Below are positions 11,872-62,720 of a DNA stretch of 64,000 nt, piece by piece. A program made the translations under genes and the position numbers. Under the pieces are notes generated by a model. It worked only from the letters and a program-made list of their open reading frames with translations, searched no databases and was not told the DNA's origin. Within the stretch, counting starts at the first letter, position 1; each line of letters begins with the position of its first letter. Source of the stretch: Amphibalanus amphitrite (taxonomy: Eukaryota > Arthropoda > Thecostraca > Balanomorpha > Balanidae); the NCBI RefSeq assembly GCF_019059575.1, contig NW_024881858.1:134501-198500 (forward strand). Reading direction: 5' to 3'.

Positions 11872-12461
11872 TATTCTTCCACATGCGCATCATTTCTTGC
11901 TTCAAAGACTTTTATGCTGACGGTGCACGATAGGTATACCTACTGGGTATACCTACCTCATGCATTTACCACATCCATTCGAAAATATGCGCTCGGAACT
12001 GTCTCCAGTCAATAGTATTAATTACGTGACCGTAATAAATACTAATGATTCCAAAAACTTCCGAATGGATGTGGTGTACCTATGCATTCATTGATTATAC
12101 CGGGTGGCCCAAAAAAAACGTTCCCAACTTTGAAGATCTATATCTGTGGTTCTAACTCAGATAAGGGGCTGAAACTTTCACCACGCGTGCGTCATTTCAT
12201 TGCGCATCGGTATGCCAAATTATTTATCCGTACCGTCCTTCGCGTGGCAGCACTGCCATGTTGAACGAAATGCCACCTTTTTACTTTTTTTGCCGGATCT
12301 TAAAACATGATGAAATTTGGGTTGAACATACTAGGATGACAGTATCATTAATTTTTACTCGTGTAAGCGAAACCAGCACGTGCGTTACAAAATTCAAACA
12401 TTTTCCCCCTCATTTATGCCAATTGTTCAAATATTTCGCCAAGCTGGTGCTGACGGATGAG

Positions 12462-15831: not shown

Positions 15832-16957
15832 TTTTTCTTTGGAAGAGGAAGTGTACCTATTGGCTGTGTTTTACATATGAGAATAGGCAAGTTGTGCATC
15901 ACGTGCTGGATATTTAGAAATTCGATTGATGTGTTGCGAAAAATGGCTACCTGATTTTTGTCTGTTTTAAACCTATGTGTGCCCCATCGAAGACTTTTCA
16001 ATACAAGTCGGAGTACCGGGACCAATAATAACTTTTACCCACTACCCAGTGAAAGTCCGTTAAAACAATTTCAAATAAGCATTTACCTGGGTATTAACTA
16101 TTAAGACATGACTCTTCAGTCTTACTTCGTAAATGTTCAAACAGTTTGTAAATGCGAAATCAACTCCAAAATCTACCCTAGAAACATGTAGAACTCGAAG
16201 CAGTAAACTAAGGTCATCAAAGGTCAGTAACCTGACTGACCTTCACGTGACCTTGACACCCACTAGAATCCATGGGATCAACATCCTTTCACATGTTTGA
16301 TCGCTTAAAGCCACAAAAAAAGACAATAAACGCGCTCATAATGTGAGCCAAAATACGCTAAATCGCGATTCCAACCAAACATGGTCTCGGAAAACAGGTC
16401 ACAAGTCAAAGGCCTTTTTTGGGTCAGGGTCATAAAAATTTTAAGGGTAGGCGTAATATTGATAGTAACTCGAGGGTACTGAAAGTTTCGTCGCGAACAG
16501 CCGCTTTTTGCGCCCGTTATTTGCGAAAAAAAAAACTGAGAGTGGGGCGTCTGTTCGACACCCTCTTACAAGTGCGAAGGTTAAGGTCAGGCCGTTGACC
16601 AATGACGTCAAAAGTGAACCTCTGCAAGGTCCCAAAATGTCGCATGCCATGGGACCTTTCACTGGGTAATGAAGCTTATATGATCTACATAGTACTTTCT
16701 CCCAGCCCCCGTTCACGAGCTTCATAATTCCTTTACCGTGACGTCATCACGGCGCATTAATTTTCCTTCACCCATAGAAATGCATGCAAAGCATGGTGTG
16801 TTTCAGGCGGGCTAAGGAGAAATCTAAGGCCTACATGTGTTCAAAAGACGTACCACTAAGCCAATGGATTCTTCTCATTACGATAAATGGGGTTGAAATC
16901 GAAACATTCGGCCTATATTTATCTAAAATGGGCCAATCAAATGGTCCCTGCAACTCA

Positions 16958-38214: not shown

Positions 38215-38660
38215 TGAGAAGGGGTGGGCACGTGTGCAATTGCATGTGCCGACCAATACTCTCGCTGACCTTTGCAATCTGCATACTTTATATGCGTGGT
38301 GTCATTCACCATACCAAAGTCCAAATGTGAGCGCTATCGGCCCAACCGATCCCGAGATATGAAAAAGGGGTGCGCACGTGCGCACGTGCCGATCAATACC
38401 TTTGCCGACTTGTGAATTCTACATATAAGCATGTTATCATTCAGCATACTTGATATAAGCACTTTCGGCCCAGCCAATCCCCAGATATGAAAAAGGGGTG
38501 CGCACGTGCGCACGTGCAGATCAATGCTTTTGTCAACCTGTGCAATTTGCATATAAACATGATGTCATTCAGCATACCAAATATGGGCGCGATTGGCACA
38601 GCCAATCCCGAGATGTGAAAAAGGGGTGCGCACGTGCGCACGCGCTGAGGCAATTCGAAA
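38215..38660. repeat. 128-bp tandem repeat with GTGCGCACGTGCGCACGTGC core
   Basis: Three regular units have TGCGCACGTG starting at 38371, 38499 and 38627 (period 128), with a diverged unit before them near 38225. Units share CCCAGCCAATCCCGAGATATGAAAAAGGGG-type sequence. The monomer length and the CACGTGCGCACGTG core match, in inverse orientation, the arrays at 50.4-60.7 kb. Confidence 0.85.
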
Positions 38661-39009
38661 TCGTCCTAAGGTCACGGGATGTGTAGTGTGCACCCAGCCA
38701 AAACAACAAACAAATATTGAACCGTTTCCATTCAGCCGTTCCCGAGTTATGGTATGACGAGCTCTTTTGGAACCTCTCTCGTCGCACGTGACACGTGCTG
38801 TAACAGGCACTCATGAGTGATATCAATAGCACAGTTCAGGGTAGAAAGGATGCAGCCCCTCCCCAAAGAAGACCGCTCATCAAACAGTCAAACCGTTTTG
38901 GAGATACATGTCGATAAAAGTCATTACGGCGGCCGGTCGGGCCGAAAAGTTCAATTTTCCTAACTTCTGTTACGTTCCGTAACGAGTACGGTGGACGCTG
39001 CCAGTTTAC

Positions 39010-39508
39010 GGCGACTGGTTGCTCTAATGTCCGCCGTCTTAAGCTATGCAACACTCGAGCCAACATATCGTTTCGATCAATCCCTGGCGCTGCAACTGAG
39101 CATGTTGAACGTGTGGTTCAGGCGTCAACAGAAACCGTTGCTCCTAACGTAGTTCTCCACGTAGGTACAAATGACCTGACGCGTAACGGGTCGGAGCAGA
39201 TAGTCTCGAATTTGGTGAAACTAGCACAACAGACAAAGAAAAGATCAGGAGTCAGACAAGTATACATCTGCAGCGTAACGCCTAGAAAAGATATCGGTTC
39301 ATTTGTATACAGCAGGGCCGAGAGCGTAAACAACAGGCTTCATTCCCTCTGTCCCAAGCTAGCTGGCATAGAGTTCCTAGACTTGCGTCAGTGTCTTGAC
39401 AGATGTCCATTTACCGGCCTCGTAAGGGATGGTGTTCATTATAACAAAGCAGGTGCTACACAAGTTCTGAACACCATAATGGACTCAGCCGGCAGTTTTT
39501 TAGCATAA
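39010..39508 (+). pseudogene. ORF1 fragment with SGNH/GDSL esterase-like domain (CR1-type)
   Basis: The frame reads VRRL, then FRSIPGATAEHV, VVLHVGTNDL (the GxND block), VRQVYICSVTPRKD, and DGVHYNKAGATQVL (the catalytic Asp-X-X-His block). Esterase-bearing ORF1 proteins are typical of CR1/L2-type LINEs. The N-terminal GDS block with the serine nucleophile is not visible, so the copy is 5'-truncated. It lies 210 bp upstream of ORF2 on the same strand, the normal arrangement. Confidence 0.85.
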
Positions 39509-39630
39509 ATGAATGCAATAGTCCGAATGTTGAAGATTCAACATTCTTTAGCGCGAGTACCGAAAATGTGACCGGTCAAGCAAGCAATAAGAAATGTAAA
39601 TATAGGCAAGCTAATAGAACAAATAGGGAC

Positions 39631-42467
39631 TTGTCATTTGTACTCCTAAATTGCAGGAGTATAAGATCTGAAAACAAAGCAAGAAAACAAAACAAAATTA
39701 TATGCAGATGATGTTAAATTGTTTGTACGAGAACACAACCCTGATGTCATTATGGGTACCGAGTCATGGCTAACAAACGACATAAGTGATGCGGAAATAT
39801 TCCCACATAACTATGTAACATACCGAAAAGACCGTTGTGACAGGACGGGGGGAGGAGTTTTTATATGTATCAGAGAAAGTATAACTAGTTACAGGGAGGA
39901 TTGGAATAATACCGATGAATGTGAGGCGATTTGGTGTAGGGTCATTGATAAGGGAAAGAAACATTATATCATAGGGTGTCTTTATGACCCACCTAGTGAC
40001 TGTGAACTTCGGCTATCCGAATTCTTGTCTGTTCTCGAGCAAAAAGCACTATCCACAAATTCCAGAATCATTGTCGGTGGTGATTTTAATCTTCCAGATA
40101 TAGATTGGACCAACATGATCAGCTCGACTGGTGGAAGATACCGCAACAAAAACGATATTCTAGTAAATGTTGTGAATAGTTATGGATTGGAGCAAATGGT
40201 TAAGGTACCAACCAGGGTAACTGAACACGCTAGCAACATTCTGGACATAATTATAACTAACGTTCCTCAACTAGTTAACAACCTTCACACATGTTTGGGC
40301 ATTAGTGACCATTTAGCTGTGATATTCCAAACCCAGGATGTAGCACGACAACCAAAAGTAAAACGAAAGATAAAACAATATAATAGAGCCAATTTTGAAG
40401 ATATAAATCAGCGTCTTTATCAATATTTCATACAATTTCGTGAAGAAGCACTTTCACGGACCGTTGATGAAAACTGGATTATGTTCAAAGAGGCGATAAG
40501 TAATGTAGAAAGTAGCATACCTACCCGTGCCTTTACCATTAACGGAGATCCTCCGTGGTACAGTCTTAGACTTAAACGTCTCGAAGACAAACAGAGACGG
40601 TTTCATCGAGAAGCAAAATTTTACAAATCTGCTGTTTCTCTGCAAAGGTATAGAGAAATTCGGGCGGTTGTAAAACAGGCATACAAAGAAGCAGAGTCCA
40701 ATTACAAAAGTAGGCTTGGGTCGCTCTTGAAAGAAGACAATAGACATTTTTGGAAGTATGTTAAAGCAAAAAGGACTAAAAAAACGGGCATTACCTCTAT
40801 TGTATCCGAGAGTGGGAACATTGTCCACAACCCGGAGGATATAGCAAATATTCTTAACAATCAATACAAAGGGATATTTTGTGAGGAAGATGATACAGAT
40901 ACAACATCATTGAGCGATTGCACTCGCACGTCGGAGGTTATGCCGCCGGTTCTTATTAGTTATCATGGCATCGTAGGCCTCTTACAAAATATTAAGGTCC
41001 ACAAAGCGTGTGGCCCTGATGGCATTAGCGCGGCTATTCTAAAACATTGCGCAAAAGTGGTCGCAATGTACCTCAAAATGATTTTCGAACAGTCTCTTCA
41101 TATGAAAGACATTCCTCACGATTGGCGTCAAGCCACAGTGCACCCAGCTTTCAAAGGGGGCAGTACCAAACAACCTGTAAATTATCGTCCAATTTCGCTC
41201 ACATGTATATGTTGTAAAATGATGGAGCGTATTTTAGTTTCCCATATTGTGATGCACCTAGATGATTTTGACCTATTCTCTGATAGTCAGCATGGATTCA
41301 GAAGACATCTTTCTTGTGAGTCACAACTGTTACTGCTTTATCAGGATATTATGTCATCCATTGACAAGAAAAAGAGTGTTGATTTGGCATTCATTGACTT
41401 CAGTAAGGCGTTTGATAGGGTTCCACATAAACATCTCTTAACTAAACTAAAAATGTATAATTTAGATGATAACGTTCTTGGCTGGATTGAAGCCTTCTTA
41501 TATAATAGAACGCAGAGAGTTCTGGTTAATAATTGTTATTCTGATGTGATTAGAGTTACGTCCGGTGTCCCACAAGGGAGTGTATTGGGTCCAATATTAT
41601 TTCTTTTATATATTAACGATCTTCCGGATATGATTAATTGTCAGATAAAATTATATGCAGATGATGTTGTTCTTTACACAGACATCTTAAGCAATGAAGA
41701 ATGTAGTTTTTCGTTACAGGCAAATATAAATAGATTATCTCAATGGTGTTCCAAATGGAAAATGTCTATTAATGTTGGAAAGTGTGCTATCATGAGAATG
41801 ACAAAGCAAAAACTTGCTGCAATGCCTAGATACTATTTGAATGGAATAGAAGTTCAGGTTGTCAATGAGTTCAAATATTTAGGCGTGCATATTTCGAATA
41901 AATGTACCTGGCAAAATCATGTACAACATGTCACTGGTAAAGCGAATCAGATGCTACGATTTATTAAGCGAAATTTCAAGGATTGCCCACAGGCTGTAAA
42001 GGAAATCATGTATTTGTCCCTTGTTAGGCCACATCTAGACTATGCCAGCTCTGTTTGGGACCCATGGGGAGAGGGCATGAAGCATGAGCTGGAAATGGTT
42101 CAAAGGCGTGCTGCTAGATTTATACTTAATGACTACGACCGACATAGCAGTGTTACTGACATGCTGGCCACAATAGGATGGGTATCCCTAGAAAGCCGAC
42201 GTAGAGAGGCGAGATTATGCTTACTGTACAAATTACACCATGGCAACATGAAAGTAGATGTTAGTAGAATTATATGTGAACCTAGCTATATATCACGGAG
42301 TGATCACCCTAAAAAGATAGAGACTTCCGTCGAGATTACTTCAGTACCATAACTCGTTTTTCCCAAAAACCATAAGAGAGTGGAACCAACTTTTGCCCAG
42401 CATGGTGGAAGCCGAATCTGTGGAAGATTTTCGGAAAAACGTTCAAACACATGTAAATTCGGCGTAA
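39631..42467 (+). pseudogene. CR1-like LINE ORF2 (endonuclease and reverse transcriptase), disrupted
   Basis: An 877-codon open stretch (39719-42352) encodes an apurinic-type endonuclease (IMGTESWL, GGGVFICIRE, GGDFNLPDIDW, ISDHLAVIF) and a reverse transcriptase (GPDGISAAILK, NYRPISLTCICCK, IDFSKAFDRVPH, SGVPQGSVLGP, LYADD at residues 645-649 from 39719). The first endonuclease block, LLNCRSIR, is in another frame at 39646-39670 because a 22-nt insertion (39694-39715) breaks the frame. The last ~40 codons (to about 42467: REWNQLLPSMVEAESVEDFRKNVQ) are displaced by two more frameshifts. The element is therefore dead but little eroded, and there is no ATG at the start of the long frame. Confidence 0.92.
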
Positions 42468-43152: not shown

Positions 43153-44019
43153 TTAACCCTCGCCCTTTAGGGGGGGGGGGGGGGGGGTGGTCGAACGGAC
43201 TCCCCTCGGTTTTTCGCAAATAACTCGCGTAAAAAGCGGCCGATCACGACGTAACTTTTAGTACCCTCGCGTTGATCAATTTTACACCTACCCTGAAAAT
43301 TTCATGACCCCTGTGACCTACTTTTCGAGACCATGTTTGGCCGGAACCGCGATTCAGCGTATGTCGGCTCGCATTAGCAGCGCGTTTGCAGTCTTTTCGT
43401 GGTTTCAAGCGTTCAAACATGTGATATGATGTTGCCCCCATGCATTAGGGTGGGTGTCAAGGTCACCTGAAGGTCAGGTCAGGTCATTGACCTTTGGTGA
43501 CCTCGGTTCACTTTTTCGAGTTTGACATGTTTCTAGGCCAGTTTTTTCGAGCTGAATTCGAATTAAGCAACCACATGAACGTTTACAAAGTAGTTTTGGT
43601 GCCTTCGTAACATGTTACGAGGCTGTCAGAGGCGGTTGACACCTACTACAAATACCCGGCAGGACCTCTACTGGTTGACCTGACCTGACCTAACCCGACC
43701 TGGCCTAAATGAATGAAGACATCATCTGTGATCAAAACTAGCATGATATTCGTGATCAGCACCCCGAAAAACCCCATAGCAGCCACACTACGACGTTCTA
43801 ACAGGTCCCAATTTTCCCGCCTTTTGGGTCATTGACCTGACCTGGAAGGCCAACCGATGACCTAGGACCTTAAAATTGGATATCATCGGCTTTCTCTCGT
43901 CACGGGCAACACGCTCGTTTTTTTCCGCGAAGCTCTAGCTTGATCAGGAGCGAAACGGCAAGGGGTTATACCTTATACGTTCGCGGCTGGAAAAAAACAC
44001 CAATACGGGCGAGGGTCAA
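43153..44019. mobile_element. TTAA element, family A, inserted in the Mutator-like right TIR
   Basis: TTAA at 43153-43156 and TCAA (one change) at 44016-44019 flank 859 bp with ends CCCTCGCCC and its complement. A run of about 18 G follows the left end. The flanks (GTGAG before, GTTGAAAG after) match continuous sequence in the left TIR of the Mutator-like element, so this copy inserted later. Rich in GGTCAGGTCA. Confidence 0.85.
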
Positions 44020-47263: not shown

Positions 47264-48700
47264 TAAGGTATTTTAACCACTATTTTCAGCTGGCCTTCTC
47301 AGTCCAAAAAAAGAAACTAGGTCACGTATCTTTGTGTTTTATTATTTACATATAAATTGGCAATAAATGTGCACAGGGCAAGACCAGCGTAACTCTGTAA
47401 AGTAGTTGCGAGGATAATTTTTTGACCGACCACGCCATTTCGAAAATAATATATCTTTGGTTGTCGGAGTTTATTATTGATCAAATCATATTTTTATCCT
47501 TGAAAAATTAAAATTAATAGTAAAAAAGTATTATCAAATGCCAATACTGCTTCTTTCAATTTCGAAACCACCAAGCTCAGCAAATGGCTGGCCCACCTGA
47601 CCAACCAACGTTTTACCACAAATTCTCGAATAAAATCAGTTGTATAGGTTGTAAATCATGATTGAACAATATCAAAATTGAATAATCTTTCCGATTTTAT
47701 GTGTAATTTCATTTGTTAATGCTCGAAACTAGAATAAATCGATGTTGAATGCAAAACCACCTTTGGTGATCTTGGTCACAAGCTGTTTCACTAGATGTAA
47801 TGTTTTTCAAAAACAAGACCGAGTCGGCGTCTAAAACGTTCACCAAAATATGCAGAAATGCTGACATTATATGGTGTCAAAGTATCAAAGCTCATCTAAT
47901 GGGGGAACATTGTCAATTTCGCTTCCGAATCCGAAAGTTGGCATTTTGGGTACCAATCAACTCCGAACAAAAAACATTAATGCTCGTTAAACATGGTGGT
48001 GATGGGTTCCCAAAAGGTCTTAATCAAAATGAAAATTTTATTTTCTTCCCAAGTATGCATGTTTTATTGCATTTTCGGTGCTATAAGTTATATATTTTTG
48101 GTCTATAATGTATCAGCTTCCTTGCTGTTTGAGGTCACACTGTAACAGTTAGTGGCATATTACTAAAATATAAGACCGAGTCGGCATCTATTGAGGGTAC
48201 TATAAGTAACAGAATTTAATTTTCTATCTGATGTTATAAATTTCAAAACATGACTAATGGGGGAACATTACGAAATTCGATGTTAAAAACTGCTGACCAC
48301 GATTTTACACCCACAGCTGCGCACGGTTTCGTGTACTGCAAATGCTGCTAATATAGTTCTGACGCTAGCAGACGCACGTTTTTGCATTCAATTGCCTGCC
48401 ACGGCGTTCCATGTGCTGATAGAGAACATCCCTGGTTTTCGACTTTTCTGTGTTGTGTTTATTTGTTTATTAGGCACATTTCAATTCAAATTTGAATTTG
48501 GTTCTCACTTCTGTGGGTCTTGGAGTTGTGGATATATTTTGTGGAGCGCGGAGCATCAGAGATTTTTGTGGAGGATTGGATTGGCGTTTTCGTAGTCTCC
48601 TCTTTCTGGTGTCAGTGTTCTTTGGTGTTTTTTTTTTTAGATCTTTTCATAGGCTACTCGAGGGCAGCGCTTTTCGAGGAGCGCTGTGGCCCGAAGGTTT
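47264..48700. repeat. AT-rich region with a diverged ~355-bp duplication
   Basis: AAGACCGAGTCGGCGTCTA near 47815 recurs at about 48172, and CTAATGGGGGAACATT near 47897 recurs at about 48253, so two diverged copies lie about 355 bp apart. No protein domain is seen in the whole stretch. Confidence 0.55.
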
Positions 48701-48714
48701 GAACTTTGAATTGT

Positions 48715-49325
48715 GAAAAACGCCCACCCGCCGCAAAACGCAAACACCGCAAAACGCGCAAAACGCACGCCCGAAACGCCAACGCAAAGGTCGCAAAAAA
48801 TAAACAAACGCCCGCCGCAAACCGCAAATAAAAAAAAAAACGAAAAAACGCCGCAAAACAATAAAACCGCCCGCATCGCACGCCCGCTAACCGCCAACCG
48901 AAAACGCCTGAAAATCGCCCGCCCGCCGCCAAAAAAAAGCACCGCAAAAAAACGAAAAAGCGGCCGCCAACCGCAAACAAATTTAACACCGCAAACGACG
49001 CAAAAAAAAGAAAACCGCCCGCATCGCCCGCCCGCCCGCCCGCCGCCAAAGACAAACACCGCAAAAAACACAAAACGCCCGCCCGCCGCAAAACGTAAAC
49101 ACCGCAAAACGTGTAAAACGCACGCCCGAAAAGCCAACGCAAACGGCAACAAAATCGCCCGACCGCCGCAAACCACACAGAAAAAAAAACGCCGAAACGC
49201 CGAAAAAATAAAACCGCCCGGCGCCCGCACCGCACCGACGCTAACTGCTAACCGAAAACGACTAAAAGTCGCCCGCCAGCCGCCAAACGCAAACACCGCA
49301 AATAAGCGCCCGGCCGCAGCAAGAT
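48715..49325. repeat. T-poor A/C-rich low-complexity tract
   Basis: Built from CGCCCGCCGCAAAACGC and AAACACCGCAAAAA variants with very few T on the plus strand. It gives long open frames on both strands (up to 247 codons, Phe/Ala/Gly-rich on minus, Lys/Arg/Pro-rich on plus) that are compositional artefacts. The same tract type recurs at 55815-56520. Confidence 0.85.
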
Positions 49326-49384
49326 AATAATTTATCAACGGCTGGCATATCGCTATAGGCTGGTCATTTTCACAAATCAAAAAG

Positions 49385-49622
49385 ATATCTGCAAAAATCT
49401 CCTAGATGAAAGCGCCCGATTAAAAAACGGATGGCACGTGCGTGTTCCTCGCCCCCAACTTCCTTCAGGTCAATCGTCATTTGGGTCATCTAACGCATTG
49501 ACGTATCTGCAAAAATCTCCTAGATGAAAGCGCCCGATTAAAAAACGGATGGCACGTGCGTGTTCCTCGCCCCCAACTTCCTTCAGGTCAATCGTCATTT
49601 GGGTCATCTAACGCATTGACGA
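49385..49622 (+). repeat. Exact 119-bp tandem duplication
   Basis: Two abutting copies start TATCTGCAAAAATCTCC and end AACGCATTGACG, with no difference seen. It must be a very recent duplication or an assembly artefact. Confidence 0.9.
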
Positions 49623-50282
49623 CCGGCTGGGTGGAATGAACATTGCGCCAAGAAACGTAAGTATATTGTCAAAAAGAATCCCCAGAATGGTGGATCCCAA
49701 AAGTTTGAAACTACCACTTTGGCCCACTGGACGACACCTTAAACAGTTGCCGACCGGATGACACCCATTGTTTGGTCACCCACGCCATAGTATGCATCAT
49801 GGGTGCGCCGAAATGACCAAAAGTCCCAATTTCCGGTGTGCAGGGTCATTTTCAACGGCACGTGGCACGTGGTTCTGGACTTTTCCGGCCACTTTGCGAC
49901 ATACCCATGGGTAGTGCACCGAATGGTGGTTGATCTGCATGTAAGAAAATGGGGGGTCGTTTGGATCGTTTTCGAGCAATCTGCCGTGGAACGCATTTTT
50001 TCATTTTCCCCATTGGCTTAACACGGGAATGTTTAAAGTCACGTGGCACGTGCACCAGATGGTCCGCGGAGGGGAGACCCATACCAGAACGTAGATCACC
50101 TGGCCCACTAGAAATCCTGAAAAAATCAGAATTTTTGGACCAGCCGTTTTCAAGAGCATCAAGTTGTACTGATCTCAGGCAGCTTTTGCCAAATTGTCAG
50201 GGAACTCAGATTTGTTTTTCAATAGAAAAACACAATTCTAAAGAAAAGTGTTTTAACTATTGACAACAAACCTTCGGTTAGA
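49623..50282 (-). mobile_element. Diverged copy of the tandem (Helentron-like) family, 5' part
   Basis: Contains GGCACGTGGCACGTG-type motifs and GACCAGCCGTTTTCAAGAGC. It ends at about 50282 with a degraded version of the common end (AATAGAAAAACACAATTCTA ... AACAAACCTTCGGTTA). Confidence 0.5.
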
Positions 50283-52298
50283 CCAGCATCTGCGATGCTG
50301 GGCTCCGCATCGCGGGACCGCAGGTTGTTTGAGCAAGCACCTCTGTGAACGCAGCAAAAACGCCCGCCGCCAAACGAGAGGACGAGCATTGCACGTGCAG
50401 ACCGGGGTGGGTGTGCTACAAACTGACGTGCACGGCACCCTATTCGCCGGTCTATACCGGTGTGCCAAATTTGAGTCAGGTCAGGTCAGGTCAACCGGTA
50501 GGGGTCGTGACGGGTATTCGTAATATGAGCCTTGCACGTGCAGACCGAAGTCGGTGTGCTACGGCCTGACGTGCACGGCACCCTATTCGTCGGTCTATAG
50601 CGGTGTGCCAAATTTGAGTGCAATCGACCCGGCCGTTTTCGAGATCTGGAAGCGACACCCTGCACGTGCGCACGTGCATCCTAGGCCCCAATTGACTTGT
50701 GCACGGCACTCTATTCGCCGGTTTCTAGCGGTGTACCAAATTGGAGCTCAATCGGCCCCGTCAATTTCAAGATCTGGAAGCGACCCCTACACGTGCGCTC
50801 GTGGAGCTGCACCCCAACCGCGGCACATGAAAATACATACTAACTGACTTGTGCACGGCACCCTACCAACCAGTCTCTAGTGGTATGCCAAATTTGAGCA
50901 CAGTCGGTCCAGCCGTTCTTGAGATATGGAAGCGTCAGCCTGCACGTGCGCACGTGCAAACTGGGTCCCATCTGACTTGTGCACGACACCCTACTCGCCG
51001 AGCCCTAACGGTGTGCCAAGTTTGATCACAATCGGCCCAGCCGTTTTTGAGATCTGGAAGCGCCACCCTGCCCGTGCGCACGTGCAGCGGCACCCCAACC
51101 GTGACACATGGAAATGCATTGCGGGGCGTGTGCCTACATCCATGCCAAGGATCAGCGCAATCGGCAAAATAACTACAGAGTTATTACACTTGCTACCGAA
51201 CTGAAACCTCTTCGTTTTGCACGTGGCACGTGCATTAGGGGTCACCCATACGCATCGAGAGGAGCACAGTACGTTTGGGAAAGGAAGAAACTATCTCACT
51301 GAAAAGACCGCGAGTGAAGCGGTCAAGCAGTTGTGGAGATAGAAGCTTTGCAAGGCGCCCCCACGGCGGCCGACTGCCAATAATTAGCAATAATCAGTGT
51401 CGCATCCGCACACGGGAGGTATCCCCGTCACCTGTTCGTATATTCTAATGTGGTTGGGTTCAAGTCACAGTCGAGCCCTGATTTTTTACAACTTTTCTTA
51501 AAAACGGCACATCGTGCAGTGACGTCCTATGCATCAGTGGAAAGAGCATCAAAAGTTGTATATTATATTAACTTTTCACCTATGTATATTACTAACGGTT
51601 AAAGTTATAGAGGAATAAAGACGCTCCCATTGACTTTCCATGTTAAAAAATTTAAATTTCAAATAGACTTTATAAGAAAAAACGATTTCTGCCAGCTTAA
51701 CGAAGCATACCAGCATGTACTACGCTCTTTCCTCTACAAGATATCAGAGTTTGGGCGAAATCTATCTCTAAAATTTTGTACAAAGATCGAATGAAAATGT
51801 CTCTGCAAAGTCTCGACATAGCCGTCCATTGACATAACATGGGACACAGCAAAATTCCAACTTTGATCTCGTGCAAAGACACGTTCCGAGATTCTGAGGG
51901 GTATACGGCGCACACTAGCGTGTACCGGAACGTGTTTGCCATAAAATGCTGGGAAGAAAACCACCTCCTTCTTGGCTCGTTTTTCCGCCATTGGCGATCG
52001 CGCAAAAAGTGTCCAAAACCCCGTTGACTTAACATGGGGAAAATGGAACCGCACGTGCCACGTGCCACGAGGTTTTAAGCGAGTAGCGACCGGTGCCATC
52101 AGGTAGATCGCCTGCGGGAGCCCATACACTGAACTTTTTACGAAGATTGTACATTTCGTCTAGGCCCCGCTCAAGTTGTACTGATTCGCTGCCAGACTTG
52201 CAAAACATAGCCCGGAGAACGACCGCTCCGGTTGTTTTTCAATAGAAAAACACAATTCTAACGAATAGTGTTTGTCTTTTCAAACAACCTGCGGTTAC
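50283..52298 (-). mobile_element. Helentron/HINE-like copy 1 (complete ends)
   Basis: The left boundary (3' end if minus-oriented) is CCAGCATCTGCGATGCTGGG with the hairpin GCGATGC/GCATCGC (50292-50313), then ACCGCAGGTTGTTTG (50317-50331). The right boundary is its complement followed by TAC (52281-52298), preceded by CCGGAG...CTCCGG and the AATAGAAAAACACAATTCTA block. The interior has an array of GCACGTGCGCACGTGC units (50395-51090), then unique sequence shared with copy 4. Non-coding. Confidence 0.7.
50395..51090. repeat. Array of alternating 128/152-bp units, copy 1
   Basis: Palindromic cores start at about 50662, 50790, 50942 and 51070 (spacings 128, 152, 128). Each unit carries CGGTGTGCCAAATTTGAG, ATCGGCCCGGCCGTT, GAGATCTGGAAGCG and the CACGTGCGCACGTG palindrome. 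An earlier diverged unit with a single CACGTG lies near 50530. Confidence 0.85.
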
Positions 52299-53150
52299 CT
52301 GTCATACGCCTCTGACAGCTTCGTAACATGTTACGAAGGCACCAAAACTACTTCGTAAACTTTCAAATGGTTGCTAAATTCGAATTCAGCTCCAAAAACT
52401 AGTCTAGAAACATGTAAAACTCGAAAAAGTGAACCGAGGTCACCAAAGGTCAGTGACCTGACCTGACCTTCAGATGACCTTGACACCCACCCTAATAGAC
52501 ACCCCCTAGGAAGCAGCATCATATCACATGTTTGGACGTTTGAAACCACGAAAAGCTTGCAAACGCGCGGCTAATGCGAGCCGACATAGGACGCAGAATC
52601 GCGATTCCGGCCAAATATGGTCTCGGAAAAGAGGTCACAGGTCAAAGGTCATTTGGGTCAGGGTCATGAAATTTTAAGGGTAGGTGTAAAATTGATCAAT
52701 TCGTGGGTACTGAAAGCTTCGTCGCGATCGGCCGCTTTTTACGCGAGTTATTCGCGAAAAACCCTAGGGGGGTTGCATCAACCCCCCCGTTAAGGTCTAA
52801 TGTCAACTAGTGACCTCTGAGGTCACGACAATTGACCCAAGATACGGGCTTGGTTTCCGCTAAATGACTTCGCAAAAATTGCCACAGAGCCGCGATTTCT
52901 GCATCATCGTGCTTACCTTGCTAAGGCGCGTCGAATGGTATACTTTTTGTTTGGTTGAGGTCAACCTAAGGTTGACCTGACCTGCCCTTGACCTCGGGTC
53001 AAGGGCAGGTCAGAGCCCCTCATGTCATGAGGTTGGTCGAATGAGGTCATATCGCATATCAAGTTTCAGCACTTTGTCGCCGGCGTGACTCGAGCTATCA
53101 CGAAAAAACCATATGGGAGGAGGCGGGTGCTGCCCCCTCTGCGGCGAGGG
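52299..53150 (-). mobile_element. TTAA-family element, reverse, decayed
   Basis: 52303-52770 is the reverse complement of parts of 43157-43640 (CGTAACATGTTACG, AAACATGTAAAACTCG, GGTCACCAAAGGTCAGTGACC). From 52780 to 53150 a second TTAA-type end (CGGCGAGGG then TAAA) follows. GCGTCGAATGGTATAC near 52926 is the shared core motif. Probably a chimera of two copies. Confidence 0.6.
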
Positions 53151-53289
53151 TAAATCAATATTGACGCAATGGTGACGTCACGGTCGCCGTCGACGTCACC
53201 ATTCAAATCAGAGTCATTGACTTGTGCCGACTATCAAGTTTAATATTGATGCTTCAACGGATCTGATCTTATCAGCCGAAAACACATTA

Positions 53290-53630
53290 CATTCCTTTTT
53301 ACTCGCTAGATGGCAGAAGCGTCAAACGCCTGAATGTATGCTGTGCCGCAATGCCGGCTCCATTGTATATAACCGCCTAAATGAATGGCGGAGTAATGAG
53401 GGATCCGGGAAAACCACTACCTCTTTAGAACTGATGAGTGATGACTCTCACGAAACTGAAGCTTTTGAAGACGATTACCGAGTGTGGTAAATGAGTCTGG
53501 TATTTTTGATTTTAGCCAAGCATTTACTCGCTAGATGACGCAGACGTGTCAAACGCCTGAAAGCATGTTGCGCCGCAGTGCCACCTCTTCCGTATGTAGC
53601 CGCATGAATGAAGATTTAAGCGGAATTGGC
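53290..53630 (+). repeat. Diverged ~224-bp tandem pair
   Basis: TTTACTCGCTAGATGGC...GTCAAACGCCTGAATG at about 53300 recurs as TTTACTCGCTAGATGAC...GTCAAACGCCTGAAAG at about 53524. Short frames through it (53224-53490, 53535-53765) match no domain I know. Confidence 0.6.
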
Positions 53631-53864
53631 TCAGCCGTTGTCGCCTATGTGTACCTACATAGAGGTCCAACCATGCCGCTGAAATTGATCTATCATTCAA
53701 AGCTTCATAACAATGCGCGGAGTAATTTTTCTAACAAACGCAAAAAAACTAATAGGTGTGGTTAAAAACGCCCCTGCCCCACTCGGGCGGAGGTTAATGT
53801 GTTGTGGTAGCAAACTCATTAATTGTTTCCGTCTAGTCTTCTATTTGGATTCGCGGCCAAGTAT

Positions 53865-53967
53865 GCAAAACATAGCCCGGTGAAGGACTGCTCCGGCTGT
53901 TTTTTCAATAGAAAAACACAATTCTAACGAATAGTGTTTGTCTAATGAAGAAACAGCCTGCGGTTAC
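53865..53967 (-). mobile_element. Solo 5'-end fragment of the Helentron-like family
   Basis: Contains CATAGCCCGGTGAAGGACTG, AATAGAAAAACACAATTCTA and ends CAGCCTGCGGTTAC, diverged from the consensus. Confidence 0.65.
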
Positions 53968-55761
53968 CCACCGCCAAACGAGAGGATGAGCCTGGCACGT
54001 GCAGACCGGAGTGGGTGTGCTACGAGCTGACGAACAGGACACTCTACTAACCACTCTAGCGGTGTGCAAAATTTGAGTGCAATCGGTCCTGCCGTTTTCG
54101 AGATCTTGAAGCGGCACCCTTCACGTGCGCACGTGCAAGCTGGGTCCCAATTGTGTTGTGCACGGCACCCTAGTTGCCGGTCTCTAGCGGTGTACCGAAT
54201 TTGAGCTAAATCGGCCCAGTCAATTTCAAGATCTGGAAGCGACCCCTGCACGTGCGCACGTGCAGTTGCAATCCAACCGTGACACATACCAATACATACT
54301 AACTGACTTGTGCACGGCACCCTACTGATAAGTCTCTAGAAGTGTGCCGAATTTGAGTGCAATCGGCCCAGCCGTTCCTGAGATCTGGAAGCGTCACCCT
54401 GCACGTGCGCACGTGCAACCTGAATCCCATCTGACTTGTGCACGGCACCCTACTAACCGGTCTCTAGCGGTGTACCAAATTTGAGCTCAATCGGCCCGGC
54501 CGTTCTCGAGATCTGGAAGCGTCACCCTGCACGCGCGCACGTGCAGTTGCACCCCAGCCGTAGCACATGGAAAGGCATGGCCCGGTGTGTGCCTACATCC
54601 TTGTGTAGTTTCAGCAGAATCTCCTCAGGAATTACCGTGGTCTTGTCATTACAACAAAAGTGACACCTCTCTGTTTTACACGTGTCACGTGCAGTAGGGG
54701 TCACCCGCATGCATCGTCCATAGTAAAATACTTGTAAGAAGGGTGTACGCTACCCCATACAAAAAACCGCAAGTGTATCGGTCCAGTGGCTGCGGAGATA
54801 TAAGTCGTACAAAAACGTCCCCACGGCGGCCGGCCGCTAATATTTAGCATTAAATTCGTGTCGCATCCTTCTATGGGAGGTATCCCTGTCACCTGTTCGT
54901 ATACTGTCTGAGCCAAGGCCATAATAGGTGTGAGCTCAAATCTCGGTAAAGTCGTGCTTTTTTACTAAATTTCTCGAAAACGGCACAACGTGCAATGACG
55001 TTCTATATATCACTAGAAAGAGCATCAAAAGTTGTATATCCTATCAACTTTTCACTTAAATATATCTTCAACGTACAAAGTTATTAAGCACCAAAGACGC
55101 TCCCATTGACTTTCCATGTTAAAAATTTTCAATTTTAAACGAGGTTAAAAAGAACAAACGAATTCTGACATCTTAACGAAGCATAACAACATGTTCTATG
55201 GTCATTTTTTCAACAGGTCCTGAAAGTTTAAACAAAATCGTATCATATAATTTTGTGCAATGAACGAATGAAAATGTCTCTGCAAAAACGTCCATAGACA
55301 TAACATGGGGAACGAAAAATGTTCAACTTCAAAGTCGTACTACAAAAAATATCGACTTCTTACGGGTATACGGTACACAGGGGCGTGTACCTGAACGTGT
55401 CCGCCATAAAATGGTGTGCAGCAAACCATACCTTGACCTGCGATTTTTCCCGCTATTCGCGATCGCGCAAAAAGTGTCCAAAACCCCGTTGACTTAGCAT
55501 GGGGAAATGGAATCGCACGTGCCACGCGCAAAAGAATTCTGAGCGAGTAGCGACCGGTGCCATCAGGTAGATCGCCCCCGGGAGCCCATACCCTGAAATT
55601 TTTACGAAGATTGAGCGATTCGTCTAGGCCCCACCCAAGTTGCCCCAATCTCAGGCCGACTTTGCAAACATAGCCCGGAGACGGACCGCTCCGGTTGTTT
55701 TTCAATAGAAAAACACAATTCTAACGAATAGTGTTTGTCTTTTCAAACAACCTGCGGTTAC
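53968..55761 (-). mobile_element. Helentron/HINE-like copy 2 (hairpin end missing)
   Basis: Begins inside the tandem array (54000-54560, at least four CACGTG cores) and runs to a perfect CAAACAACCTGCGGTTAC end at 55744-55761. The interior (54840-55740) is shared with copy 5 outside its nested MITE. It abuts the hairpin end of copy 3 directly. Confidence 0.7.
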
Positions 55762-58276
55762 CCAGCATCTGCGATGCTGGGCTCCGCATCGCGGGACCGC
55801 AGGTTGTTTGAGCAAGCACCTTTGTAAACCCGCCGCAAAACGCAAAACCGCAAAACGCGCAAAACGCACGCCCAAAACGCCAACGCAATTTTCGCAAAAA
55901 AAACAAAGAAACAATCGTCCGCCCGCAGAAAAAAACAAAAAACGCTGCAAAAACGCGCGTCCGCGCAAAACGCACGCCCAAAACGCTAACGCAGGCCTCG
56001 CAAAAAAAACAATCGCCCGCCCGCCGAAAACCGCAGAAAAAAAGGCAAAAAAACGCCGCAAAAAACGCCCGTCCGCCGCAAAACGCAAACACCGCCGCCG
56101 CCGCAAAAAAAAAACGCGTCGCCCGCCGCCAACCGCGCAACGCCGCAAATAAACGGCCGCCCGCCGCAAACAGCAACACCGCAAATAATGGTCGGCCGCC
56201 GGCAACCGCAAAACGCCGCAAAAAACGGCCGGCCGCCGGCAACCGCAAATAGCCGCAAAAAAAAACGGCCGGCCGCCGCCCGCAGCCAAACGCAAACACC
56301 GCAAAAAACGCAAATACCGCCGCAAAAAAAACGCCCGCATCGCACGCACGCCCACCGCCAACCGCAAAACGCCGCAAAAAACGGCCGCCCGCCGCGAAAC
56401 GCAAACACCACAAAAAAACGCAAAATCGGCCGCCCGCCGCCAAACGCAAACACCGAAAAACGCAAACACTGCCGCAAAAAAAAAACGCACGCCGTCCGTT
56501 AAACGTAAACACTGACGCATTAAGACAAATATGGCGCCTTCCGGCAAGTGTGGTGTATTCATATCTGCCGTTTAAGCAGCCATCCCTCAATCAAAGCGCA
56601 TCCTAATCGTCCCATGTTCGATAAAGTTACGCACATTCTGTGATTTGCGGCAAAAATGGCACTTTGAGACAAACGTGGCGCACTGCGACAAACGTGGCGC
56701 ATTCGTTCCTGTCGCTTAACAATTTTATCCACCCACCAAAGTCTAGCCCAATTGGACTTAAACTGACAAAGTTATGTTCATTTGAATATTTCACTATAAA
56801 ATATCTCCGCAACGGAGGTGCCCAAATTTGCACGTGTGCCACGTGACCGCCGGTAGTGTAAGCAGGACTTGTCCCCTCACTAATTGCACCATTTCAGTGT
56901 TCCTGGCTTGTGCTGTTTTCGTGCTATAAGGCCACAAATCGGCAAACACACGATAATCTGGGAGGTACGCGACTCAAACACGTGGCCACGTGGCACGTGC
57001 CGGACCTCTGACAGCTTCACCGTTCACGCCACGTGATGACCCATCGACGTGGCCATCAGCATGTAAAAGATGACCCCGGCCGGTGTCACCGTCTCTGAAC
57101 AGTGGACGGCTAATCTCGAAAAACGGGAAAATTTAGGGAAATTTCACTTTTCGAACATATAATTTCCCCAGAATTTTAAATAATTCATTTTACAAAAAAT
57201 CCGAGATAGCAGTTTTTTAGCCCCCTGCATTCTGTGCCTAAACCCGTTTTCAGATCGACCCTATCATAAAAACTGACGGCCTGACGGCTATTTCCCCCAG
57301 TCCTTGCATTTCACAATGCTAGTATATTTAAGCACCAAAATTGACCCCGTGCCACGGCACGTGCCATAGCACGTGCGACACGTGACCACTAGTGCGACAA
57401 GCTGGACTTATCTGCTCACCGGCTGCACTGATTTGGTGTCGCTAGGTGGAGTGGTTTCCACGCCATAGGACCCCGAGTAGGCCAATGTCGGATTTTCCCG
57501 GAGGTTCCCCCATCGAACACGCTTGCACCACCGTCAGTTGGGGTGCCAGCCCGAGATCCGACCCTAAAAATATCAGCAAATATAATTGACGAAATTTTTC
57601 GCAAATCGCATTTTAATTTTTTCCCCATGTTAACCCTATGGGAAAATGCACGTGCCGATTACCCCAAAACGGGCCCATTATATTTCATAACGAAGCATAA
57701 CAACATGTTCTATGGTCGTTTCTCAACAGGTCCTGAAAGTTTAAACAAAATCGTATCATATAATTTTGTGCAATGAACGAATGAAAATGTCTCTGCAAAA
57801 ACGTCCATTGACTTAGCATGGGGAGCAAAAAAAGTTCAACTTCAAACTCGTGCAACTCAAGTTAACGAATTCTGACGGGTATACGGCGCACACGGGCGTG
57901 TACCTGAACGTGTCGGTCATAAAATGGTGTGCAGCAAACCATACCTTGATCGGCGATTTTTTCCGCTATTCGCGATCGCGCAAAAAGTGTCCAAAACCCC
58001 GTTGACTTAACATGGGGAAAATGGAATCGCACGTGCCACGCGCAAAAGAATTCTGAGCGAATAGCGACCGGTGCCATCAGGTAGATCGCCTGCGGGAGCC
58101 CATACCCTGAACTTTTTACGAAAATCGCAATGCACGTTTAGGCCCCACCCAAGTTGCCCCAATTCGCGGCCAGCCATGCTAAACATAGCCCGGAGAAGGA
58201 CCGCTCCGGTTGTTTTTCAATAGAAAAACACAATTCTAACGAATAGTGTTTGTCTTTTCAAACAACCTGCGGTTAC
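55762..58276 (-). mobile_element. Helentron/HINE-like copy 3
   Basis: Has a complete left hairpin end (GCGATGC/GCATCGC at 55771-55792), ACCGCAGGTTGTTTG at 55796-55810 and its complement at the right (58259-58276). In place of the CACGTG array it carries the T-poor A/C-rich tract (55815-56520), then CACGTGGCACGTGCC-rich sequence to 57400. Confidence 0.68.
55815..56520. repeat. T-poor A/C-rich low-complexity tract
   Basis: CGCCCGCCGCAAAACGCAAA-like units, very similar in style to 48715-49325. Long frames on the minus strand (up to 289 codons) are compositional artefacts. Confidence 0.85.
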
Positions 58277-58289
58277 CAAATTCCTCAAA

Positions 58290-58413
58290 AACGGTACTGA
58301 TTCGCTGCCAGACTTGCAAAACATAGCCCGGAGAAGGACCGCTCCGGTTGTTTTTCAATAGAAAAACACAATTCTAACGAATAGTGTTTGTCTTTTCAAA
58401 CAACCTGCGGTTA
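58290..58413 (-). mobile_element. Solo 5'-end fragment of the Helentron-like family
   Basis: An almost exact second copy of the terminal ~100 bp of copy 3 (CTGCCAGACTTGCAAAACAT ... CAACCTGCGGTTAC) follows it directly. Confidence 0.75.
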
Positions 58414-60000
58414 CTTGTGCCGGTCTCTAGCGGTGTACCAAATTTGAGCTCAATTGGTCCCGCCAATTTCAAGATCTGGAAGCGACCCCTGCACGTGCGC
58501 ACGTGCAGCTGCACCCCAACCGTGACACATGAAAATACATACTAACTGACTTGTTCACGGCACCCTACTACTCAGTCTCTAGCGATATGCCAAATTTGAG
58601 CACAGTCGGCCCGGCCGTTTTCGAGATCTGGAAGCGTCACCCTGCACGTGCGCACGTGCAAAATGAGTCCCATCTGACTTGTGCACGGCACCCTACTCGC
58701 CGATCCCTAACGGTGTGCCAACTTTGATCACAATCGGCCCAGCCGTTCTCGAGATCTGAAAGCGTCACCCTGCCCGTGCGCACGTGCAGCGGCAACCCAA
58801 CCGTGGCACATGGAAATGCATTGCGGGGCGGGTGCCTACATCCATACCAAGGATCAGCGCAATCGGCAAAATAACTACAGAGTTATTAGACTTGTTACCG
58901 AACTGACTTCTCTTCGTTTTGCACGTGGCACGTGCATTAGGGGTCACCCATACGCATCGAGAACAGCACACTACGTGTAAGAAGGGAAGAGGCTATCCCA
59001 CACAAAAGACCGCGAGTGAATCAGTCCAGTGGTTGCGGAGATATAAGCATTGCAAAGGCGCCCCCGCAACGGCCGACTGCTAATATTTAGCAATAATCAG
59101 TGTCACATCCGCACACGGGAGGTATCCCCGTCACCTGTTCGTATATTCTAATGTGGTTGGGTTCAAGTCACAGTCGAGCCCTGATTTTTTACAACTTTTC
59201 TTAAAAACGGCACATCGTGCAGTGACGTTCTATACATTGTTGGAAAGAGCATCGAAAGTTGTGTATCTTATTAACTTTTCATTTTGGTATATCTGCAACG
59301 TAAAAAGTTATTAAGCAACAAAGACGCTCCCATTGACTTTCCATGTTAAAAATTTTAAATTTCAAATGAACTTTATAAGAAAAAATGAGTTTTGCCAGCT
59401 TAACGAAGCATAACGGCATGTACTATGCTCTTTCCTCTACAAGATATAAGAGTTTGGGCGAAATCTATCTCTAAAATTTTGTACAAAGATCGAATGAAAA
59501 TGTCTCTGCAAAGTCACGACATCGCCGTCCATTGACTTAACATGGGACACAGCAAAATTTTAACTTTGACCTCGTGCAAAGACACGTTCCGAGATTCTGA
59601 GGGGTATACAGCGCACACTGGCGTGTACCCAAACGTGTTTGCCATAAAATGCTGGGAAGAAAACCACCTCCTTCTTGGCTCGTTTTCCCGCCATTCGCGA
59701 TCGCGCAAAAAGTGTCCAAAACCCCGTTGACTTAACATGGGGAAAATGGAATCGCACGTGCCACGTGCCACGAGGTTTTAAGCGAGTAGCGACCGGTGCC
59801 ATCAGGTAGATCGCCTCCGGGAGCCCATACACTGAACTTTTTACGAAGATTGTACATTTCGTCTAGGCCCCAATCAAGTTGCCCCAATTCGCTGCCAGAC
59901 TTGCAAAACATAGCCCGGACAACGACCGCTCCGGTTGTTTTTCAATAGAAAAACACAATTCTAACGAATAGTGTTTGTCTTTTCAAACAACCTGCGGTTA
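58414..60000 (-). mobile_element. Helentron/HINE-like copy 4 (hairpin end missing)
   Basis: Starts within the array (58414-58830, three CACGTG cores). The unique part (58840-59930) is close to 51100-52230 of copy 1, including GCACGTGCCACGTGCC near 59755. It ends at 60000 and abuts copy 5. Confidence 0.7.
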
Positions 60001-62720
60001 CCAGCATCTGCGATGCTGGGCTCCGCATCGCGGGACCGCAGGTTGTTTGAGCAAGCACCTCTGTAACGCCGCTAAAGGTGTGCCGAATTTGAATGCAATC
60101 AGCCCAGCCGTTTCTGAGATCTGAAAGCCTCACCCTGCACGTGCGCACGTGCAAGCTGGGTCCCAAATGACTTGTGGACGGCACCCTAGTTGCCGGTCTC
60201 TAGCGGTGTACCGAATTTAAGCTCAATCGGCCCAGCCGTTTTCAAGATCTGGAAGCGACCCATACACGTGCGCACGTGCAGTTGCACCCCAACCGAGACA
60301 CATGAGTATACATACTAACTGACTTGTGCACAGCACCCTACTAACCGGTCTCTAAAGGTGTGCCGAATTTGAATGCAATCGGCCCAGCCGTTCCTGAGAT
60401 CTGGAAGCGTCACCCTGCACGTGCGCACGTGCAACCTGGGGCCCAGCAGACCTGTGCAAGACACCCTACTACGCGATCTCTAGCGGTGTGCCAAATCTGA
60501 GCACAATTGGCCCGGCCGTTCTCGAGATCTGGAAGCGTCACCCTGCACGTGCGCACGTGCAGTTGCACCCCAATCGTGGCACATGGAAATACATACTAAA
60601 TGACTGCAACCTACTGATCGGTATCAAGCGTTATGCCAAATTTGAACACAATCGGTCCAGCCGTTCTCGAGATCTGGAAGCGTCACCCTGCACGTGCGCA
60701 CGTGCAGTTGCACCCCTACCAAGACACATGGAAATGCATCGCCTGGAAAGTGTCTACCTCCATGCCAAGTTTTAGCGCAATCGGCCCAGTAATTACCGCG
60801 AGCTATTGCGCTTATTACAAAACAGGCACCTCTTGGCTTTGCACGTGGAACGTGCGTTAGGGGTCACCCATAAGCATTGAGAGTAGCACACTATGTGAAA
60901 GAAGGGAAAAAGCTACCCCACACCATAAACCGCACGTGTATCAGCCCAGTGGTTGCCGAGATATAAGTCGTACAAAAACGTCCCCACGGCGGCCGGCCGC
61001 TATTTAGCAGTAAAATCGTGTCGCATCCTTCTATGGGAGGTATCCCCGTCACCTGTTCGTATACTGTCTGAGCAAAGGCCATACGTTACGGTCCAAACTC
61101 CATAGGTGAGGCGGACATACGAATTTACGAGAGTTTAGCGACGAAATGATTCACTTAATTGTTAAGTAATGGGTACCATTAGGTAGACCATAAATTTTAT
61201 CTAGCATCTCACCGTAGATGCAGTAAAAAGTGCTTTACTTTTCAATGTATATAAAGACTTGCTCAGCTCAATCAGTTCACTCTGTATTGGCTCAAGCCGT
61301 ATCATGCGAACGCAATACAAACTAGAGCACCGACAGCGCAGCGCTCCCCAACTCACTGCTCGCCCAGTCCACCCGGGCCGCCGCCACGACGGCCCCCCGC
61401 AAGTAGGCATCCCGCACTGCACCGACAGCCGCGGGCGACCAGCTGACCGGCCAGCTGACCGGCCAGCAGCCGGCGGGCGGCAAGCCGCGGATGGCCGACC
61501 CGCCGGCGCGGCGAGGGAGGGGAGGGACGCAGCTGAAAGACCCGACTACATATATATCAAAGAAACATTATATGTAATCATCGATGACGCGACATAAATC
61601 TGCTTTATTGGGGTTAGCGGTGTAGTCTGTGATGCCATCACAATGAAAATAGCCTAGTTTTGTAGAGCATCAAATTCTGATTCCATAACGACTCTCGCTA
61701 GTCCATTTTCAATTGTAAATAAGCCTTTTATTGCGATGCAAAGTCCCGAAATGGTGCCGACGGCGGCCGGTCCCCCGATGGTACCATACCATAGATGGTA
61801 AACAGGTTAGTTCACATTCCCGCCGCTATGCGGGCGGCGGCGGCGCCACCTGTCCTCGTGTCCGCCTGACACCGTAACGATATAGGTCTGAGCTCAAATC
61901 TCGGTAATGTCGTGCTTTTTTGCTATATTTCTCAAAAACGGCACCACGTGCAATAAAGTTGTATATATCATTGGAAAGAGCATCAAAAGTTGTATAAAAT
62001 ATCAACTTTTGACTTAAACATATCTTTAACGTAAAAAGTTATAAAGCAGCAAAGACGCTCCCATTGACTTTGCATGTTAAAAAATTTCTTCTTTAAACGA
62101 GCTCAAAAAGAACAAACGAATTCTGACAGCTTAACGAAGCATAACAACATATTCTATGGTCTTTTCTCAACAAGTCCTGAAAGTTTAAACAAAATCGTAT
62201 CATATAATTTTGTACAATGAGCGAATGAAAATGCCTCTGCAAAAACGCCCATTGACTTAACATGGGGAGCGAAAAAAGTTCAACTTCAAAGTCGTACTAC
62301 AAAAAGTATCGACTTCTTACGGGTATACGACGCACAGGGGCGTGTACCTGAACGTGTCGGCCATAAAATGGTGTGCAGCAAACCATACCTTGACCTGCGA
62401 TTTTTCCCGCTATTCGCGATCGCGCAAAAAGTGTCCAAAACCCCGTTGACTTAACATGGGGAAAATGGAATCGCACGTGCCACGTGCCACGAGGTTTTAA
62501 GCGAGTAGCGACCGGTGCCATCAGGTAGATCGCCCCCGAGAGCCCATACGCTGAACTTTTTACGAAAATCGCAATGCACGTTTAGGCCCCACCCAAAATG
62601 TCTCGATTCGCTGCCAGACTTGCAAAACATAGCCCGGAGAAGGACCGCTCCGGTTGTTTTTCAATAGAAAAACACAATTCTAACGAATAGTGTTTGTCTT
62701 TTCAAACAACCTGCGGTTAC
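60001..62720 (-). mobile_element. Helentron/HINE-like copy 5 (complete ends)
   Basis: Left end CCAGCATCTGCGATGCTGGG with hairpin 60010-60031, ACCGCAGGTTGTTTG at 60035-60049, and its complement plus TAC at 62703-62720. CACGTG array cores start at about 60137, 60264, 60417, 60545 and 60700 (spacings 127, 153, 128, 155). An 800-bp element is inserted at 61083-61883; otherwise it is collinear with copy 2. Confidence 0.72.
61083..61883. mobile_element. TIR element nested in copy 5
   Basis: Ends CGTTACGGTCC and complement CACCGTAACG share an 8-9-bp TIR, then GGCGGACA-type similarity. The host sequence GGCCATA|ATAGG is continuous in copy 2 near 54915, proving insertion. The target looks like ATA or TA. 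The interior has a GC-rich stretch with CCAGCTGACCGG repeats and a TATATAAAG near 61249. A 112-codon frame there has no known domain. Confidence 0.65.

Follow-up and report, generated by a model that had tools for sequence, protein, structure and literature searches.

One-way arrays of a non-autonomous Helitron2-type element in Amphibalanus amphitrite, apparently built by insertion at the 5′ ends of resident copies

A stretch of 64,000 nt from Amphibalanus amphitrite (contig NW_024881858.1, positions 134,501 to 198,500 of the forward strand; hereafter the window) carries a chain of non-coding repeat elements that all face the same way, which raises the question of how such a chain is built. 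Judged from sequence, the elements appear to be of a known kind, and what seems new is their mostly TA target and the large one-way arrays that they form. They are probably non-autonomous rolling-circle transposons with ends of the Helitron2/Helentron type that insert before TA and prefer the 5′ ends of resident copies, in arrays that also grow by tandem duplication. The long head-to-tail chains thus apparently arise from new copies landing exactly at the front end of resident ones.

Units and ends of the window cluster

The cluster (48657-62719) consists of eight units in one orientation, four of them full and four truncated at the 3′ end, with the 5′ end intact in all eight. Their order from the left is A, B, 1.55 kb of older repeats, C, D, E, F, G and H. 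Six of the eight 5′ ends directly adjoin the next unit, and the spacers measure 0-2 nt at the three junctions whose downstream unit has a complete 3′ end. The units are read on the minus strand, with the 5′ end of each element at its high coordinate:

48657..50280, minus strand: unit A, full, second family; 5′ end at 50280, 3′ end at 48657 (placed from that copy and its hairpin); repeat CCGAAGGTTTG; 3′ flank beginning with TA in element orientation
48665-48686: hairpin of unit A, CAGCGCT/AGCGCTG, 7-bp stem and 8-nt loop
50283..52297, minus strand: unit B, full, family 1; 3′ hairpin end at 50283, 5′ end TAACCG at 52297
52223..52297, minus strand: 5′ hairpin region; the terminal ~78 bp almost invariant in the five units compared
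52300-53847: unrelated older repeat DNA between B and C
53848..53966, minus strand: unit C, 5′-end stub of 119 nt with a compensated change in the 5′ hairpin
53967..55760, minus strand: unit D, 3′-truncated, 5′ end intact
55762..58275, minus strand: unit E, full; A/C-rich core adjoining the 3′ end
58276..58413, minus strand: unit F, 3′-truncated stub of 138 nt
58414..60000, minus strand: unit G, 3′-truncated, 5′ end intact, no spacer to H
60001..62719, minus strand: unit H, full, with a passenger transposon inside
61084-61879: passenger DNA transposon within unit H, 796 bp, 9-bp inverted ends CGTTACGGT/ACCGTAACG
50317..50331 (B), 55796-55810 (E) and 60035-60049 (H), minus strand: 3′ subterminal repeat
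52281..52295 (B), minus strand: 5′ subterminal repeat; others at 53950, 55744, 58259, 58397, 59984 and 62703, and at 50264 in A
50292..50313 (B), 55771-55792 (E) and 60010-60031 (H), minus strand: 3′ hairpin GCGATGC/GCATCGC with an 8-nt loop

The inverted repeat that a preliminary description of this locus had placed at the unit ends is indeed found there: the 15-mer ACCGCAGGTTGTTTG occurs in the window nine times exactly and once with two mismatches, all ten at unit ends. At up to three mismatches there are 13 matches against 2.1 expected, a number that 0 of 100 shuffles reach; one of the three matches with three mismatches is the 5′ end of unit A and the other two lie elsewhere. In family 1, which starts with TAACCGCAGGTTGTTTG and ends with CAAACAACCTGCGGTCC-CGCGATGCGGAGCCCAGCATCGC-AGATGCTGG, the 15-mer is set 2 nt in from the 5′ end; its inverted copy is set 34 nt in from the 3′ end, directly before the 7-bp hairpin. 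The 5′ terminus is TAACCG: 5′ ends with differing flanks read TA followed by ACCGCAGG, so that the 5′ repeat stands 2 nt from the terminus. The 3′ terminus is GATGCTG with 0-2 further G, usually followed by TA. In unit A both the repeat and the hairpin differ in sequence, but the geometry is the same, with the 3′ repeat again directly before the 3′ hairpin.

The opposite end, previously described as plain, forms a long hairpin of which the 5′ repeat is part (z -3.6 in family 1 and -4.8 in family 2). Across eight 5′ ends (six distinct rows), 97.9% of the cells in this hairpin are paired and two of its 16 pairs are compensated; 14 of 500 shuffles reach that level of pairing, 14 of 500 reach the compensated pairs, and slid controls give 0-1 such pairs. 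The elements combine conserved ends with a diverging body, since among five units only 3 of the first 80 columns vary compared with 161 of the next 520 (p 1e-8). Divergence of the body reaches ~23% (columns 80-590).

The head-to-tail cluster of the preliminary description is therefore real and larger than first drawn, with eight units from 48657 of which the first belongs to a second family. Its architecture held in part: the hairpin with the 8-nt loop is present, but in three copies (at 50283, 55762 and 60001) rather than in at least five, four others being 3′-truncated. The two junctions reported to lack a target duplication (now 55760/55762, with a single extra C at 55761 between D and E, and 60000/60001) do lack one, and a third lies at 50280/50283. 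The absence of coding sequence was likewise borne out, as the seven open reading frames of at least 150 amino acids inside the cluster, all in A/C-rich cores, match no Pfam family. The window has no match in Rfam at gathering scores.

The core of unit B consists of 128-bp tandem repeats, and unit A contains a perfect tandem duplication of 118 bp (49386-49621). The passenger transposon is also present elsewhere in the genome, its 28-nt marker occurring in 16 of 137 loci examined, and is carried along within the elements; its target site is a run of TATATA, which obscures any target duplication. Another repeat, of ~470 bp with a hairpin at its edge, is found at 52300-52773, 43199-43641 and 16123-16530, its edge lying 2 bp from the 5′ end of unit B.

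Target site and polarity

Ninety loci were fetched, 30 of them at 3.0 kb and 60 at 401 bases (12 of the latter chosen for 5′ ends), and gave 78 hairpin cores, 46 of which stand in direct junctions (spacer ≤3 nt). Among the distinct non-junction 3′ flanks, 23 of 28 begin with TA when extra G are skipped, three with TT, one with CT and one with TC, whereas 7% would be expected to start with TA (p ~2e-22 if the flanks are independent); the insertion between two T that had been envisaged for these elements is thus not what the flanks display. Two 3′ ends with altered terminal bases (L084, L102) fell outside the flank pattern. Twelve flanks do not resemble units A, B, E or H of the window, and in ten of these TA comes first. 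On the other side of the element, the bases preceding TAACCG are variable across the ends read. A constant G before the 5′ end, suggested by the window as part of the target, was dropped when more 5′ ends showed variable bases.

A candidate empty site was obtained from contig C7, where a 34-kb stretch, sampled in its interior, is bounded by element ends (5′ end L033/L094, 3′ end L071). When joined, the outer flanks of this array read ...GAGATTATGCG... in one open frame of ~291 codons, the 5′ part of which matches a reverse transcriptase domain (E 1e-7). If this join is right, the empty site would be GAGAT^TATG, that is, T^TA with nothing lost. TA usually stands on both sides of the element, which bears on the constant duplication of 2 bp or more that the preliminary description gave as a refutation, and which fits either a TA duplication or an element that itself starts with TA; at GAGAT^TATG there is no duplication if the element starts with TAACCG, and a duplication of TA if it starts with ACCG. 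Isolated 3′ ends were set aside as a source of simple empty sites: four of five longer stretches (L129, L130, L131, L133) lack an intact 5′ end, and L132 has one, but against core sequence of another copy.

The 807.6-Mb assembly (2644 contigs) contains 3036 exact 34-nt 5′ ends, 1772 copies of the 40-nt 3′ end at up to three mismatches and 926 exact 5′|3′ junctions of family 1, with a control of 0 in each case. The 3′ end of family 1 is joined to the 5′ end of family 2 at 27 additional exact junctions, spread over 26 contigs (control 0), which represent one family order only and have no bearing on age order. Head-to-head and tail-to-tail joins within 30 nt, searched as exact patterns, both number 0 genome-wide. 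Of the first 30 3′ ends fetched, 23 directly adjoin a 5′ end, one of these being of family 2.

The same polarity holds at longer range. Among the 100 5′ ends listed (contigs C1-C16), 99 lie in clusters, and all 88 neighbour pairs no more than 15 kb apart are on the same strand. The densest listed cluster, on C6, comprises 27 5′ ends over 69 kb, all facing one way, with a largest gap of at most 5.8 kb. On C29, 3′ ends of a single direction occupy positions 1537109-1677021; gaps between them reach 41 kb, and the last 3′ end lies 664 bases from the contig end. Clusters on opposite strands of one contig do exist, ~28 kb apart on C1 and on C32. From this polarity and the number of junctions we infer that the resident 5′ end is a preferred, and not merely a possible, target.

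Elements that transpose by cut and paste into TA, with a Tc1/mariner-like target and asymmetric ends, might also stack through their flanking TA. The TA usually found on both sides would suit such elements, and the window does contain fragments of a DDE-type transposase (12165-14025). However, joins of both opposite orientations are absent against 926 head-to-tail ones, a hairpin stands between the 3′ repeat and the terminus 34 nt away, and the window units have often lost their 3′ end but in all eight cases retain the 5′ end. An ordinary cut-and-paste element is highly improbable because of the zero opposite-orientation joins in particular.

At locus L089 (C1:81463-81863), a 5′ end stands directly against a (TTAGG)n stretch, TTAGG being the telomere repeat of many arthropods.

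How the arrays grow

Over columns 80-590, the window units fall into two subfamilies, {B,G} with 95% and {D,E,H} with 89-90% identity, compared with 77-81% between the groups. These subfamilies stand side by side and interleaved along the chain, so that G is 95% like B and ~80% like its neighbour H. A comparison of 23 full-length 5′ regions placed the nearest relative in the same array for 11 and in another array for 12; for one of the 12 (L011), no second unit of its array had been sampled.

The preliminary description explained the chain by rolling-circle transposition, and this was half right. The element works like a rolling-circle element with Helitron2-type ends, but the arrays do not look like rolling-circle concatemers, each the product of repeated copying of a single circular intermediate followed by one insertion. 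Strict head-to-tail order, exact junctions and 3′-truncated inner copies are what a concatemer would give, and circles with joined ends are reported for Helitrons in the available portions of two studies (PMC4778049, PMC5148889). Neighbours nevertheless belong to different subfamilies (G and H) and different families (A|B in the window and the 27 such junctions genome-wide), and 12 of 23 units have their nearest relative in another array. A single concatemer per array is unlikely because of these mixed subfamilies and between-family junctions; as the whole explanation it is argued against both for the window and for C6. Our conclusion is that most new copies were added in succession, each at the 5′ end of a unit already in place.

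Duplication has contributed as well. On C16, a tandem duplication of 6781 bp makes six 5′ ends recur (C16:241796-263898), and the 926 junctions are therefore not all independent events. On C6, neighbours are more alike than expected by chance (p 0.005); the effect is gone (p 0.29) without three adjacent units of one subfamily, which are 89-95% alike at an equal spacing of 1873 bp, and an old local duplication is possible there. Together with the spacings of ~1.87 kb that are repeated on C29, C42 and C50, and the 1873 bp found twice on C6, these observations would fit satellite-like DNA that started from a few founding dimers and expanded chiefly through unequal crossing over or segmental duplication. 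Yet a count over the 27 listed 5′ ends of C6 gave no exact spacing that recurs, another array holds the nearest relative in about half of the cases (12 of 23), and spacers and truncation points vary between junctions. The between-family junctions on 26 contigs would still require an insertion mechanism, and growth mainly by duplication seems rather unlikely.

The duplication on C16 and the possible one on C6 nonetheless weigh against insertion at resident 5′ ends as the source of the arrays, and so do several further points. The zero counts for head-to-head and tail-to-tail joins come from palindromic patterns that both ran without a positive control. Truncated 3′ ends before TAACCG sometimes lie, as seen by eye, at sites where intact relatives have TA, and some of these junctions may be ordinary nested insertions. 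Five of the 28 flanks do not begin with TA, some of the 28 are mutually related, and 16 contain element sequence (by comparison with units A, B, E and H). For the joined frame on C7, the 56-codon 3′ part matched no family, and a join in frame has a chance of 1 in 3. In the 5′ hairpin, the number of further pair types is weak evidence, being reached in 92 of 500 shuffles. Finally, the family ends are absent from both inspected loci of the Rep protein (17 kb on C1 and 11.7 kb on C2217).

The loci examined contain 18 distinct short segments (<260 nt) bounded by successive 5′ ends. Some of these stubs restart exactly at TAACCG, after 74 and 45 nt in L097 and 36 nt in L080. In L094, the element proper is preceded by a tandem repeat made of ~98 bp of host flank and the element's first 24 nt, and L098 contains three flank-containing segments of this kind. 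As an alternative, and not a proof, such stubs could record replication that began from the 3′ end of the flank at the 5′ nick, was aborted and restarted. Short duplicated 5′ termini in Fusarium are attributed to self-insertion in the accessible text of that study (PMC5148889).

Under insertion at resident 5′ ends, an array would form as follows. The element would be moved in trans by a putative Rep/helicase, and the enzyme would join incoming copies immediately before TA. The first bases of a resident element, TAACCG, beside the nick site and the hairpin, would provide the preferred target, and new copies, complete or 3′-truncated, would stack one behind another in one direction. Arrays may afterwards enlarge by tandem duplication as well, and the very short 5′ stubs, some repeated with host flank, may be traces of aborted replication from the 5′ nick.

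More tentatively, and with somewhat less than even confidence, we suggest a lineage whose preferred landing site is its own 5′ initiation site. Directional self-targeting alone could then turn a dispersed element into large ordered arrays and would, if true, be a route to satellite-like DNA; the short 5′ stubs (some with host flank, as in L094 and L098) would be traces of aborted initiation that display where replication starts and in which direction it runs.

Partner search and known systems

The genome gave 148 matches to the Helitron Rep protein (some genes giving two), a number resting on 150 of 160 candidates scored. One protein of 1847 amino acids combines Rep with a PIF1 helicase (C1:1204348-1209889), and no endonuclease domain was found in its scanned parts. 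The Rep/helicase element with the same ends that the preliminary description had anticipated was not encountered: neither this element on C1 nor a tandem Rep element on C2217 shares the family ends in the stretches read, and both were rejected as partners. For the other Rep loci, a search for the ends within 1.5 kb of the domain, in 30 loci, likewise gave no partner.

The C2217 unit does carry the 128-bp core twice, at ~72% identity, which indicates circulation of this core among several elements. In L003, L004 and L005, elements with a different 3′ end and the repeat CCGAAGGTTGGG contain the A/C-rich core of unit E, pointing to an exchange of cores and ends between families. In the window, ~620 bp at 38321-38939 are homologous (57%) to the core (128-bp units and the following region) and lie directly upstream of a long interspersed nuclear element (LINE) with an esterase-like open reading frame and a reverse transcriptase (38918-42352); either the core derives from a LINE leader or the LINE landed in an old copy. 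Rep-bearing Helitrons also recur on one strand, at spacings of ~13.0 and 11.4 kb (C173, C2217 = L136/L137, C2314) and of 13-17 kb (C64 and C575).

Published tandem copies of Helitron-type elements, in the available portions of those reports, were explained by circles or by self-insertion from few cases. The 926 exact junctions, the strict polarity wherever ends were listed, the mixture of subfamilies and the candidate empty site make the two models separable. The arrays also link Helitron2-type ends with a TA target and may preserve a footprint of the start of replication. The literature searched, as far as its text was accessible, contains no report of TA-targeted one-way arrays of comparable size.

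Anatomically, this is a non-autonomous Helitron2-type element with a mostly TA target. A canonical Helitron (Helitron1; 5′-TC, CTRR-3′, A-T target) was set aside, the ends here being TAACCG and GATGCTGG. Helitron2 ends are described, in the accessible part of Bao and Jurka 2013 (PMC3627910), as having a repeat 0-2 nt from the 5′ end, a 5′ hairpin and a 3′ repeat directly before the 3′ hairpin. The present element fits this description particularly well: it shares the short asymmetric inverted repeats with the 5′ one inside the 5′ hairpin, the position of the 3′ repeat, the 5′ base T and compensated changes in the 5′ hairpin. Unlike in that account, insertion is mostly before TA and not between TTTT and T/C, the 3′ repeat stands ~34 nt from the end instead of ~20-30, copies in the listed part of the genome lie mostly in one-way arrays, and no Rep protein is linked to the element here.

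Helentrons share the Helitron2 end description, and the Helentron/HINE-like assignment in the preliminary description is supported as far as the end anatomy goes; strict membership is not, with TA as target in 23 of 28 sites. Because the target is not T-T and no endonuclease-bearing partner was found, we do not file the element as Helentron/HINE. As in Helentron/HINE/DINE-1 elements, to judge from the available text of Thomas et al. 2014 (PMC4067079), it is non-coding, has subterminal repeats, a 3′ palindrome, a tandem-repeat core, no obvious target duplication and a variable number of terminal bases (G here, T there). Unlike them, it has a target that is mostly TA and not T-rich/T-T, and the Rep-helicase-endonuclease partner was not found in the Rep loci inspected.

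Cg_HINE of the Pacific oyster (PMC7492417, in its accessible portions) resembles the present element as a HINE carrier of satellite-like central repeats, and whole-element tandem copies truncated at the 3′ end are cited there. In contrast, Cg_HINE is dispersed at oligo-T sites, and those portions describe no one-way arrays of element next to element. FoHeli of Fusarium oxysporum, in the available part of its description (PMC5148889), offers a close parallel: one FoHeli4 is inserted 2 bp upstream of the 5′ end of another, several 5′ termini occur with one 3′ terminus, and three tandem copies are found in Metarhizium acridum. There, however, these are isolated cases, whereas here the exact junctions number 926 and as many as 27 5′ ends follow one another in 69 kb.

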